A DNA stretch of 64,000 nt. Source: Bolinopsis microptera. Lineage: Eukaryota; Ctenophora; Tentaculata; Lobata; Bolinopsidae. Numbering within the stretch: the first letter of the stretch is position 1; each line of letters starts with the position of its first letter. The position numbers and the translations under genes were made by a program. Below the pieces are notes generated by a model. The model saw only the letters and a list, made by a program, of their open reading frames with translations. It was not told the DNA's origin and made no database searches. Location of the stretch: contig NC_087084.1 of assembly GCF_026151205.1 (NCBI RefSeq), forward strand, positions 6,565,538 through 6,629,537, given 5' to 3'. Positions 14,011 through 60,800 of this stretch are shown here, in pieces.

Positions 14011-17000
14011 CTATGTAGAACTCTGTGTTGCAGCCCCGTTTAAAATGTTTCTTTTTACGTAGACTGCTTCTACTGCCTGAGTTATGAGTTTGTAGTGAGA
14101 TTTTAAGGGTAATAGAGTAACTACTGCCTGAGTTATGAGTTTGTAGTGAGATTTCAAGGGTAATAGAATAACTACTGCCTGAGTTATGAGTTTGTAGTGA
14201 GATTTCAAGGGTAATAGAGTAACTACTGCCTGAGTTATGAGTTTGTAGTGAGATTTCAAGGGTAATAGAGTAACTACTGCCTGAGTTATGAGTTTGTAGT
14301 GAGATTTTAAGGGTAATGGAGTAACTACTGCCTGAGTTATGAGTTTGTAGTGAGATTTTAAGGGTAATAGAGTAACTACTGCCTGAGTTATGAGTTTGTA
14401 GTGAGATTTCAAGGGTAATAGAATAACTACTGCCTGAGTTATGAGTTTGTAGTGAGATTTTAAGGGTAATAGAGTAACTACTGCCTGAGTTATGAGTTTG
14501 TAGTGAGATTTTAAGGGTAATAGTGCACATCATGACTTGAAAAAACTATATAAAATTGTGCAGACAACATGAAACTTTGTGAAGTAAGTATTAGTTTCAG
14601 TGTAACATTCAGTATCAACCATGACTGTAAAAAGTTTATAGCAGGATGATGATACTGCATGTATAAGTAATAGGAAACATTTCAGAAAGTAGTTTTTAGT
14701 TCAGTAAGACCAACATGTAACCCACGTTCTCAACTTTATTGTATTTCCAGGATAATAATAGTTGTCAGAATTATTCAATGTATAACAATATGAAAGATAG
14801 GGAGTTGTTCTGAACTAATTTAACACAAGACTTTAGCTAAGACTTGCATGTAAATAATCCTTGTAAAGACTGTAATTACAGCTGTACTTGTAACGACTGT
14901 AACAGTACTTGTAACGACTGTAACAGTACATGTTACATTTTAAAACATGCACCTTGACTGCCCGAGTCACTCTGATCTTGTTTCGTGTCGCCAATAACCT
15001 GCAATGTGTGTAATTTTACTTTGGAATGTGAACCTCACAGAACCAAGTTAACATGATCTCATTTACAAAACAGCTGGTTTCACACTGTTATACACGTTTT
15101 ATGGAGAGTTTTAGTGAACTTTATTACACAGTGATTATGTAGTGGGATGGAAGCGTTTTAACCAGGTGTAGCCAGTACAAACCCTGGCTCCATAATATGA
15201 AGGATTAGAACTAACCTGAGTGTCGTAGAATGTGATAGCGGAGGGTTTAGGCTTAGAGTTGGTTTTATTGTGTTTTTTAGTAGGGTTGCCTAACAGGGTG
15301 TCATCATATAGGGGGTTGTTAAATCCTGTCCTGGCGTTCATCTGGAATTAATATATAATCAGCATGTTAATAATCATAATTAATAATTCAATGTGTTAGA
15401 ATTTATAGTAGTATATGTAATATGTAATATGTATGATTGTGTGTATAATTGTGTAAATGTAGATTGTACAATCAGAAGGTTGCTTGATAAACAAGGTGTA
15501 CATTTTAAAATTAGTTGGTTGTTGTTTTCTGGTGCGGTAATTAACTGTAAAATAAACATTTTGTATGTTACATCAGGAATACTGAAAGTGTAAACTCTCC
15601 TGCGTAACAAATCAAGATAATAAATAAATTAGAAGAGCAGACCATCAGACCATGCATAGCTAAGTTGTCTTTTGTAGATTGCATGTAACATTAGTGGAGT
15701 GTAGTTACACTGTTACAAGTTACGATTATGATATATCATGTAATACCACTATCATTTATAATATAAAAGGATAAGAAAGAAATAAATCGATATAATATTG
15801 CATTGTGTCAATAAACATACACATATTATGATTAAAAACACATCAATCCCACATGCAAGTTGCGAGGGTAATGCTAAATCGAGTGTAAACTGTATTATCG
15901 CTGCTGAAACTTACAAACTCTGCAAATACTATATCTGGTTCTGCTAAACAGTACGATTCCTGCAAACAAAATGTAACTTTCTTATTTTAACTTTATCAAA
16001 TTTTATTTTAAAATTTGTACCAGAAACATCGATTATAACTAAGCTTGTAAATGTAAAACGTATAATATGTCAACGCCTTACTTTTTAGTAATAGAGTGAA
16101 TGTGAAATACCCGAATCTTTACCAAAAGTCCATGCATATCTCATATTTTAACAATGTCCATACATTGTGTTTTCATCAAATGCATCTTGATTCTCGAACC
16201 AAAGACGCTTGCATAATAAATCATATTTTCAATTTCCTTTTTAATATCCATCAAATGATAGCACTCACATTCTCACAATCCTTACACATTACACAACAAG
16301 CTACTATACAATGATTGAATAAAATAACACCACCATATTTTAAACTGAAATTTGTGTTTGAGTGCTCCGACATTGCGCACAACAATGCTTACAGCCCCCC
16401 CCCCCCACAAGCCATGCAATTACTCAAACTCAATAGGTCTGGATACTGGTGGAGAGAGGTGAACCATATCTCACACGTGACAGCACATATCAGACACGTG
16501 ACAGCACATATTGGACACGTGACAGCACATATCGGACACGTGACGGCACATATCGGACACGTGACAGCACATATTATCGGACACGTGACAGCACATATCG
16601 GACACGTGACAAGAATGCTGAGATTTCATTTGTCACAGGTGATCGCTGATTGGTTAAAACTTTAAAATAACCGTCACGTGTCCCCACTGGTATCCAGATC
16701 AACTCGGTCTACATAGCAATCAACTACTCAACTACCATGCGGCTAATGCACTAGGAATATTTGACATGACTATATAAGGAATAATAGGAATGTGGAACGT
16801 TTCATCAGTGAGAAGAGCTTGTGACACATTGTGAAGTTAATATGCTTTTGAGTGCGCTACTTGGCTTTATTCGAGTTTGAGTACAAAATAACAATGGTTA
16901 TCTTACTGTGCTTACTCAAACTGTGTCATATCCTTTACAAATGCATAACTACAAAAAACGATCAAATTAAAAAACAATTAACCAATTAACCAATTATAAG

Positions 17001-57800: not shown

Positions 57801-60800
57801 TGTTATGTACTTTGATATGTAATACGTTATGTACTTTGTTGTGTGCTTTGTTATGTGATTCTTTAAGCTCGTTGATAAGACCTGTTTCTATGAACACCGA
57901 TTTATAAAATAAGGATTAGATCAAACCGCTATTGCGATACCCATGTCCTTAATGGTGATCTGTTACATATTATATAGTTACGATAATTGAATACCATTGC
58001 TGCTCCATCTCAATTGTTACCTTCTATAATAATATGTTGTGCGATTAGTCGCATTGTCTAGATAGTGATCCCACAATCTCTTACTCGTCTGTTAAGTTGC
58101 ATATTACTACTAATTATTACTAATTATCTCTTAGCGCATAGTCAAAATTCATTGCATTGATACACTATCCAGGTTCAAACCCAAAATATCCATAATTAGG
58201 CAAGGTTCAAAACTCCATAACAACAAAGCTATAATTTCTCTACAATGTCAAATTGTAAAATTGGGGAGGTCATTATAGATAATACAGCCGGAGCCAGCAA
58301 AGATCGAGGCACAAGATTACAAGATTGGGCGAGGGTTAGACCCCAGATGTATGCTAATATGATCCAGCACTCTGCATGCATCTCATTGCCAATCCTATTT
58401 CGCAGCAGTCTGTAATCAGCTATGGGGTCATTGCTTTCATTTCCATTGATGAATTTCCAAAGTAATTATACATTTCGAGGTAGAAGGTCTGTGGATGCGA
58501 TAAACGCGAGTGTATAAACGCAATGTATAACATTGTTTCAATCACATGATGGTAATTTTGTCATTGTCAAGTTGCTAGAGCATAATTTTCTACCACCCAT
58601 CCATCGAGGCGGCTGGTTCTATAATCTTAGAATCTTGTTGTATATAATCAGCAGCTAGGTACGGCTATTATATGCTCCCTCCTTGTCTTTGTGTATGTTC
58701 ATCCATCTTTTGTGGGGACGTAACTTCTCAATCTCTTGAGCGGTTTAAGCAAGAGAGGCAATGTATAGATGCGGTAAGATTTTGCAAATAGTGCGTTCCC
58801 GCACCTGCCTAAGATTGACTCAAGTAAGGCAAATTTCGAGGAAAACACCACGCTTAAGCCTTACTCTCAGTTTGGATTAGTCAACAGCGTAGTATGTAAC
58901 GTGGCATATTACATGATTGTTTAGTTTAACGATCAAATAACTTACAAGGTTGATGTATCACACCGAGCGTCATGACAATACAAGATGTAAAATTCTAGAA
59001 TTACCCTCCTAAAAGCTTTAAAAATTAGATGAGCAGGATAATTGGAGTTAGTCTAGCTGGCGATGAGCATAATTGAGACAGAGCATTTAATACTGACTTA
59101 CTGTTGAGGGATTCAGCTTAAGGAGTTGTTCATTTGCCAACTTTCACCCTCTTTTGTTTTTTCTCAATTATTGATAGTATTATTTGTCATCTGATGATGT
59201 GCATTGATAATGAACTTTTTCCTGATTTTTTCCCCTATTGAGTATGTTTAGGTTATAATACAGGTGCACCCCACAATAATAGAATAATAACAAATACTCC
59301 TCGCCAAAATACTTAGAACTCTATCAATGGAGACCAATATTGACTTCATTGACTATTGCTGTAATACACTAACACAGATCTGTATCTGATAAAAAGTCTA
59401 TTACTCTGACCCCACAATCGCACCTGGAATAGATTTATGAGCTCCAGTTATATTTTATAGATCTACTCATTATTCATCTATTATTCACCTGGTTGGATAA
59501 GTTGAATTATTGACATATTTTATGTGAAGTGGCATAATAATAATAATTATGCACTCACGTGACGATGTCCCCATTCTAAGTATATTATCTCTATTTATTT
59601 ATTCAATAATTTATAAAGATCAAAGAACAGATTGATGGCCTGTCTTTGATGGTCTGAATTGTTTGATTATTTGTGAATTGCTTTCATCACTCATTGGGGA
59701 ACAAATCGAATGAAACGTGAATGATAAATGTCTTTTCCAGCAGCTCGTTTGTTTGTTCCGTTTTTGGAATTGTATTAGACATCTCAAATTGCTGTGATAG
59801 TGAAAAATGATAGCTATAGCTATAACCAGATCGTGAGGAAGCAATGGTCTGCATTTTATTCATACTTATCTAACATTTCACATCTTCAATAGTTAAATTA
59901 ACCTTTGTCGGAATTTAACAATTTGATATTCATTTCCAGGAGGAAATACTCGGAAATCATGTAAGAAGAAAACGACTAATAATTGTATACTGGCAATGAC
60001 AATAAAACTGATTAGGCAGGACGGAACACCAAACTTTTTTCTTCTTTAAATAAATGCATAATTACAGCCATGGTTCACTAAAAATACGCAATAGCGATCC
60101 TGAATTACATCCTAAAAACGCAATACTGCCTAGCAGTCTAGCCGTCAAAACGCGTACGGTTTATCCATTTTCCCTTAACAAATTCAAAAAGAGTAGGCAG
60201 CATTGAGTGATGTTCCGGTAATTTCCCAGTCTACTTAGTGTACCAACTTCAATGAGCTCGCTCCATCCATCTGGCACATACTAATTACTAAAGTTTTGTT
60301 TGATTGTATTATATTATGTTTGACTGAAAATTTGTGTCATATCATAACAGAATGGCAGTGGAGCAAGTTTTCGGTATTAAGCACTGGTCGAACTTTGGAT
60401 ATTAGAGGTCATGCTACTATACCAGGCTGTAGAGTGTAGACTAAGATCTGTTCTAAGTGGCACAGTATGAGAGGTTTGTTTATTTGTACTGACTAAAGTC
60501 TGTAGAAAATACCTTAGTATAGTCATTATTCATCCATTCGAAACTATGTATGCCCTAAATACAATTTCTATATTACAAAGGATGGAATCCCCGGATTTTT
60601 CCAACAGAACCCTCTACGGTGAACAAACTGATGGATTAAGGTACGTTTGGACAGTTTGGCTGATTATCATGCTGTTTCCATCTCTCTTCGGAAACACTAC
60701 CATACTTGTAGCCTCTTTAAAATACAGAGCAATAAAACTGCACAGAGTCATCGTAATGTTTGTAGAACATATTGCCCTGCTGGATCTCGCACTGGCTATC

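Follow-up and report, generated by a model that had tools for sequence, protein, structure and literature searches.

Minisatellites lie at or beside the exon-intron borders of three minus-strand genes, here termed A, B, and C, in a 64,000-nucleotide (nt) stretch of the genome of the ctenophore Bolinopsis microptera (the window; contig 13, positions 6,565,538–6,629,537, of an assembly of 264,652,675 bases in 232 contigs). The pattern is real and locally significant: of 17 arrays in window introns, 10 come within 20 nt of a splice junction, compared to 2.38 expected when each array is placed randomly inside its own intron. It resembles the “mirages” of amphioxus rather than a new splicing device, and it is of the same kind in a different phylum. 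We consider it fairly probable that these are mirage-like minisatellites, that is, junction-proximal tandem duplications that expand fast and that splicing tolerates, with selection trimming them back where they meet splice signals.

Minisatellites at exon-intron borders

Twenty-three exon segments were re-derived for the three genes. Gene A (13925..24023, exons a1–a8) encodes part of a protein for which a Pfam search of the exons gave no match, so its frame and borders are drawn from open, phase-compatible exons. Its last exon seen, a8 (13925..14076), is placed on the assumption that the acceptor in use is that of the last array copy, and its low end is arbitrary, set after a stop. Gene B (41800..44848, exons b1–b5, with b1 counted from its ATG) encodes a kelch propeller; its five joined exons match PF24981 in Pfam (E = 2.5e-61). 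Gene C (54830..57761, exons c1–c10) is an SLC4-type bicarbonate/anion transporter gene, and its SLC4 exons match anion exchangers (E = 4.6e-52).

A first-pass annotation had placed ten tandem arrays at exons of these genes, eight at acceptors and two at donors, most of them 0–15 nt from the junction. All of this is borne out. Tandem Repeats Finder (TRF) recovers the ten arrays, each of the ten borders is confirmed as a GT/AG junction of an open exon, with 23230 as a donor, and eight arrays lie within 15 nt of their junction or overlap it; the exceptions are at acceptor 17146 (43 nt) and donor 44023 (30 nt).

Arrays are given here in window coordinates, all on the minus strand. In gene A, a 51-bp unit repeated 8.9 times (14070..14523) overlaps the exon by 7 nt at acceptor 14076; an identical AG acceptor stands in every unit and the frame is open throughout (51 = 3 x 17). 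A compound array (17190..17564) fills most of the 457-nt intron a3–a4, 39–43 nt from each end and 43 nt from acceptor 17146. An 11-bp unit (3.9 copies, 17679..17721) lies 15 nt off acceptor 17663, and a 39-bp unit (2.2 copies, 23149..23252) covers donor 23230 in frame (13 codons). Gene B has a 52-bp unit repeated 9.0 times (43060..43525) at acceptor 43076, overlapping exon b3 by 17 nt, and an 8-bp unit repeated 23.8 times (43803..43992), 30 nt off donor 44023. Gene C arrays all flank acceptors: an 11-bp unit (4.6 copies, 55274..55324) 11 nt off 55262, a 6-bp unit (7.2 copies, 56054..56096) 1 nt off 56052, an 11-bp unit (15.2 copies, 56815..56980) 10 nt off 56804, and a 12-bp unit (7.2 copies, 57770..57856) 8 nt off 57761. 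An exon-start-like stretch (TTCTGCCACTACGA) also occurs upstream of the 6-bp array, and the frame is open across that 99-nt intron. Arrays absent from the first-pass annotation include a 21-bp unit (2.4 copies, 14884..14933) 19 nt off the donor of exon a7, a 13-bp unit (3.8 copies, 23797..23845) 11 nt off the donor of exon a1, and a 16-bp unit (2.2 copies, 54952..54988) 18 nt off the acceptor of exon c10, together with intronic arrays distant from junctions at 16465, 17776, 18183, 20678, and 22945.

Repeat units that contain the junction

Some units contain the splice junction itself. At 43076, the 52-bp unit joins the final 35 nt of the intron (CTAAC, a T-rich tract, and TTTAG) to 17 nt of exon b3. 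Because the 5'-most unit of this array still has single-copy flank at its left, the initial event at 43076 looks like a tandem duplication of a whole 3' splice site. Splicing to any of the eight upstream copies is predicted to run into an in-frame stop nine codons on, which would leave the exon-proximal copy as the only productive one.

Similar structures occur in unrelated kinesin genes on other chromosomes. At kinesin locus L035, a 13-bp unit repeated 21.7 times begins exactly at the donor GT, and in another intron the acceptor junction occurs twice, 158 nt apart, and part of a 21-bp array lies in between. At kinesin locus L037, repeats of the donor sequence ATTGAGAG|GT extend into the intron. 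Both border types are thus affected, donors at 23230, L035, and L037 and acceptors at 14076, 43076, and L035. Recurrence of 14-mers identifies a border-spanning unit at 14076, at 43076, and in one intron each of L035 and L037; the 39-bp array overlaps border 23230, but its junction 14-mer does not recur. The 21-bp unit is present in two introns of the L035 gene (L035:1240-1861 and L035:2215-2295), filling one and lying in the other beside a truncated copy of the acceptor junction, an arrangement that suggests templated repair.

In gene A, the 51-bp unit at 14076 repeats the acceptor with the exon start, and the frame is open from all nine window copies. The 39-bp unit over donor 23230 is in frame and remains open through the 8.8 copies of a segmental copy of the gene described below. 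Being open in frame, both arrays may be coding. It is possible, though we do not favor it, that they are exonic, a coding minisatellite of 17- and 13-amino-acid repeats, in which case the border drawn here would be one of several or wrong. Both unit lengths are multiples of three, and the frame stays open in all 39-bp copies of the window and segmental copy and in all nine 51-bp copies of the window. Each unit also contains acceptor-like and donor-like sites, however, and variable sites of the 51-bp unit have no third-position bias (2 first, 5 second, and 4 third positions). The lack of Pfam homology for gene A likewise tells against confidence in an exonic frame.

Array positions relative to splice junctions

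Within-intron shuffling was applied to 17 arrays in 19 window introns; the array at 57770 was excluded because its upstream exon is not known, and segmental copies of the three genes were not counted as independent. Seven of the 17 arrays are no more than 20 nt from an acceptor, compared to 1.19 expected (p = 2e-5), and three lie as close to a donor (1.19 expected, p = 0.09). For either junction, the p value reaches the floor of the test (5e-6). By gene, the counts for either junction are 5 of 11 for gene A (0.84 expected, p = 5e-5), 1 of 2 for gene B (0.14 expected, p = 0.14), and 4 of 4 for gene C (1.39 expected, p = 0.008). The window outcome is similar under other TRF thresholds. Clustering at junctions beyond chance, as the first-pass annotation had proposed, therefore holds inside the window. 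A reading by chance alone is rejected there by the shuffle and is not rejected for the genome.

For a genome-wide comparison, a crude codon model was run on 10-kb pieces and gave almost no usable exons (53 segments over L017–L033, mostly repeats), so homology-anchored loci were used instead. Eight independent loci, comprising an SLC4-like gene (contig 12) and seven kinesin loci (contigs 1, 7, 8, and 12), were found by Pfam exon matches and picked before their own sequence was seen; kinesins were chosen for compactness, so long introns are under-represented. The set holds 40 hand-annotated introns (33 plus three in L039 and four in L040) with 12 arrays. TRF finds no array in the four L040 introns. 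One intron (L033 2019–2436), in which no array is listed, was excluded as unclear, and one L039 intron, also without an array, had its acceptor coordinate 10 nt off in the shuffle.

In these loci, acceptors have 2 of 12 arrays within 20 nt (1.86 expected) and donors 4 of 12 (1.86 expected, p = 0.09); within 40 nt of either junction there are 9 of 12 (6.32 expected, p = 0.03). At a TRF score of 40 (16 arrays), the counts are 3 compared to 2.93 for acceptors, 6 compared to 2.92 for donors (p = 0.02), and 8 compared to 4.84 for either (p = 0.03). At a score of 70 and a minimum of 2.8 copies (7 arrays), they are 0 compared to 0.94 for acceptors and 3 compared to 0.94 for donors (p = 0.04). Outside the window, junction proximity is thus weak with donors leading, and the acceptor preference is confined to the window. 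The earlier statement that arrays occur mostly at 3' splice sites accordingly describes the window and does not carry over to the independent loci.

Array occupancy was measured per base over 52 introns (19 in the window and 33 elsewhere). It is 0.06–0.07 in the first and last 10 nt, 0.18–0.32 at 31–400 nt, and at most 0.03 in exon flanks. On the acceptor side in the window, it is 0.15 in the last 10 nt, 0.29–0.37 at 11–50 nt, 0.28–0.37 at 51–400 nt, and 0.06 beyond. Tandem arrays with a TRF score of at least 50 and a period of at least 4 make up 18% of fifteen 10-kb pieces sampled elsewhere in the genome (ten at fixed positions and five random).

Several of these measurements weigh against a special association of arrays with junctions. 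Base-level occupancy at junctions is not above that of intron centers. An array touches the first 40 nt in 5 of 19 window introns and 5 of 33 others. For the last 40 nt, the counts are 7 of 19 and 4 of 33, and for the central 40 nt, 5 of 19 and 7 of 33. Junction-spanning 14-mers recur at 4 of 104 junctions, compared to a mean of 16% for interior 14-mers over 46 introns. Six of the ten window arrays (17146, 17663, 55262, 56804, 57761, and 44023) lie beside the junction but do not include it, and the array at 56052 includes it in part. For either junction within 20 nt, the independent loci give 6 of 12 arrays compared to 3.72 expected (p = 0.09), and the strictest threshold gives 3 compared to 1.89 (p = 0.26). 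The window itself came from a scan for striking features, which makes its p values flattering.

Such figures invite a simpler explanation, in which arrays land anywhere in the short introns of a minisatellite-saturated genome and the window is a lucky cluster. The array-rich sample, the near-expected counts at acceptors and at either junction elsewhere, the absence of a base-level excess, and the way in which the window was chosen all agree with this combination of edge effect and selection. We regard it as rather doubtful. The shuffle conditions on intron and array length, and the window still reaches the floor of the test; an edge effect should be small in gene A introns of 457–5567 nt, yet gene A retains its excess; and landing nearby cannot explain units that contain the junction.

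A mutational process aimed at junctions, for example R-loop or transcription-linked breaks mended by template switching, could also make the duplications. Junction-spanning units at donors and acceptors of unrelated genes are what such a process would leave, as is the truncated acceptor copy that adjoins a piece of the 21-bp array at L035, in the manner of templated repair. We nevertheless judge it unlikely: arrays are about equally frequent in intron centers, and junction-spanning 14-mers are rarer than interior ones. Low junction occupancy and rare junction recurrence count against an aimed process, yet they also fit purifying selection that protects splice signals.

The first-pass annotation had proposed arrays of branch points or acceptors, selected because they buffer splicing or make isoforms, and had seen a yUnAC-like motif in many acceptor-side units. 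The strict motif is present in five of nine such units compared to 2.55 expected from shuffled units (p = 0.05), a marginal excess, and two of the quoted forms, TTCAAC and CATAAC, fall outside the strict definition. In unit strands of other loci, its frequency is near chance (23 of 116 compared to 19.7 expected). A branch-point meaning of the arrays is at best weakly indicated and is not upheld. A complete 3' splice site does occur inside the 52-bp unit, but any of its eight upstream copies would lead to an in-frame stop, and there is no acceptor bias elsewhere, so that we consider selection for splicing function highly improbable. What survives of the proposed repeated birth of arrays at junctions is tandem duplication anchored at junctions of both types, its single-copy flank readable at 43076 and with parallels in L035 and L037. 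A special acceptor or branch-point process is not supported, given the lack of acceptor bias in 40 independent introns, the marginal motif, and the rarity of recurrent junction 14-mers.

Segmental copies and array turnover

Genes A and B are duplicated ~82–85 kb downstream, and gene C is duplicated ~82 kb upstream (locus L032), where exons c1–c5 match. Contig 13 from ~6,513,000 to 6,696,000 contains this tandem segmental duplication of genes A, B, and C with a spacing of ~82–85 kb, and its aligned pieces are 76.9–99.8% identical. A further SLC4 fragment with stops lies at 6,513–6,514 kb on the same contig. Matched exons of genes A and B are 93.7–100% identical between copies (b3 over 63 of 71 nt).

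Array lengths differ more visibly. Between the window and the segmental copy, copy numbers are 8.9 and 16.9 for the 51-bp unit, 9.0 and 7.5 for the 52-bp unit, 2.2 and 8.8 for the 39-bp unit, 3.9 and 7.9 for the 11-bp unit at 17679, and 23.8 and 22.0 for the 8-bp unit at 43803. For gene C, they are 7.2 and 10.2 in L032 for the 12-bp unit and 15.2 and 11.8 for the 11-bp unit at 56815. The arrays are unstable in length, as seen between segmental copies rather than alleles of one locus, and this is so whether the copies are segmental duplicates or uncollapsed haplotypes.

These observations are consistent with the following mechanism. In an array-rich genome (~18% of the sample), short tandem duplications would arise in introns, and a visible share would lie at an exon-intron border or straddle it, turning an entire 3' or 5' splice site into the repeat unit. 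Copy number could then change rapidly by slippage and unequal exchange, in a manner that we take to be neutral. The arrays would be tolerated through exon definition, by which the spliceosome can pair the copy nearest to a short exon across that exon. Purifying selection would keep the last ~10 nt at junctions and the exon mostly repeat-free, so arrays would end just short of splice signals.

Comparison with border minisatellites in other animals

Amphioxus mirages are minisatellite-like tandem duplications of 5' and 3' exon-intron borders, described in Adh3 and globin genes, with mirage-like cases also in TnC and PGBD5 (PMC3087553, PMC3902484). One mirage has six and three units in two haplotypes (PMC3087553), and reverse-transcription PCR (RT-PCR) suggests regular splicing (PMC3087553, PMC3902484). 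The ctenophore arrays share with them units over both border types, unit lengths of tens to ~160 bp, AG or GT in many units, and copy-number differences between haplotypes or copies. They differ in phylum, in that more than half of the window cases merely abut the border, and in that the sampled genome is array-rich throughout. Regular splicing of amphioxus mirages is supported by RT-PCR, whereas the ctenophore arrays are read here from DNA sequence.

Human genes in segmental duplications also have minisatellites at exon borders, which are able to create introns (PMC2812944). The likeness extends to ~30-bp minisatellites at exon borders, segmentally duplicated genes, and copy-number differences between paralogs; the human case is tied by transcript data to new introns and alternative transcripts, whereas the ctenophore case is read from the genome. 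Rogers, and Gao and Lynch (as cited in PMC3087553), describe introns gained when an AG/GT-bearing segment is duplicated in tandem. Splice-site-bearing segments are likewise duplicated here, but no gained intron is shown in the window. In Caenorhabditis elegans, the intronic minisatellite CeRep25B lies near alternative exons (PMC4039745), which is comparable in its closeness to splicing regions. CeRep25B is one dispersed family; the 51- and 52-bp arrays, in contrast, are found only at their own locus and its segmental copy. A dispersed or introner-type origin was rejected for these two of the ten arrays, on a search of the best candidates that skipped very common words. No ctenophore report of border minisatellites was found among the best-ranked open-literature matches.

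A broader proposition is that ctenophore exon-intron borders are genome-wide birth sites of tandem duplications, and that border-spanning minisatellites occur generally and recurrently in array-rich animal genomes rather than being an amphioxus oddity. We hold this to be a speculative and improbable generalization on present evidence. If true, it would imply a steady supply of duplicated splice sites, of protein repeats in frame, and of material from which new introns could form. Recurrence of border-spanning minisatellites in a ctenophore and in amphioxus would mean that duplication of whole splice sites is ongoing and repeatable, so that spliceosomal choice between identical sites, and the origin of introns and protein repeats, could be tested directly. 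The large share of arrays also makes exon borders hard to annotate correctly in such genomes.

Further observations on the genes and the genome

Gene C has an in-frame TAA at window positions 56693–56695 (minus strand), inside an ungapped alignment to anion exchangers, and the L032 copy is open at that codon. Exons c6–c10 were not found in the L032 copy within the 5.5 kb examined. Given the stop and the exons not found, the two copies of gene C may both be pseudogenes, or an assembly error may affect one of them. Contigs 3 and 12 contain four SLC4 genes that are single open frames of 849–915 codons, in addition to the intron-rich SLC4 genes of contigs 12 and 13; these single-frame genes are possible retrocopies or cases of intron loss.

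Intron b3–b4 of gene B contains a large near-perfect inverted repeat at window positions 42190–42920, read by eye. Arrays of 10-bp ACTGCTGCTC-type units are present in inverted orientation at window positions 10345–10550 and 49363–49403 and in the downstream segmental copy, and are probably part of a dispersed element. The published B. microptera genome comprises 265 Mb in 13 chromosomes, the largest of 26.2 Mb, with a GC content of 38.5% (PMC11797021; PMC10232365); base counts give a GC content of 36% for the window. Paired arrays of 13-bp units, ~2.7–3.3 kb each with more than 200 copies, lie a few kilobases apart at L007:461-3185 and 6770-9513 and at L022:545-3841 and 5542-8757. Near the end of the window, a (GT)n run of ~505 bp (62001–62505) lies beside a rhodopsin-type G protein-coupled receptor frame (60471–61559).

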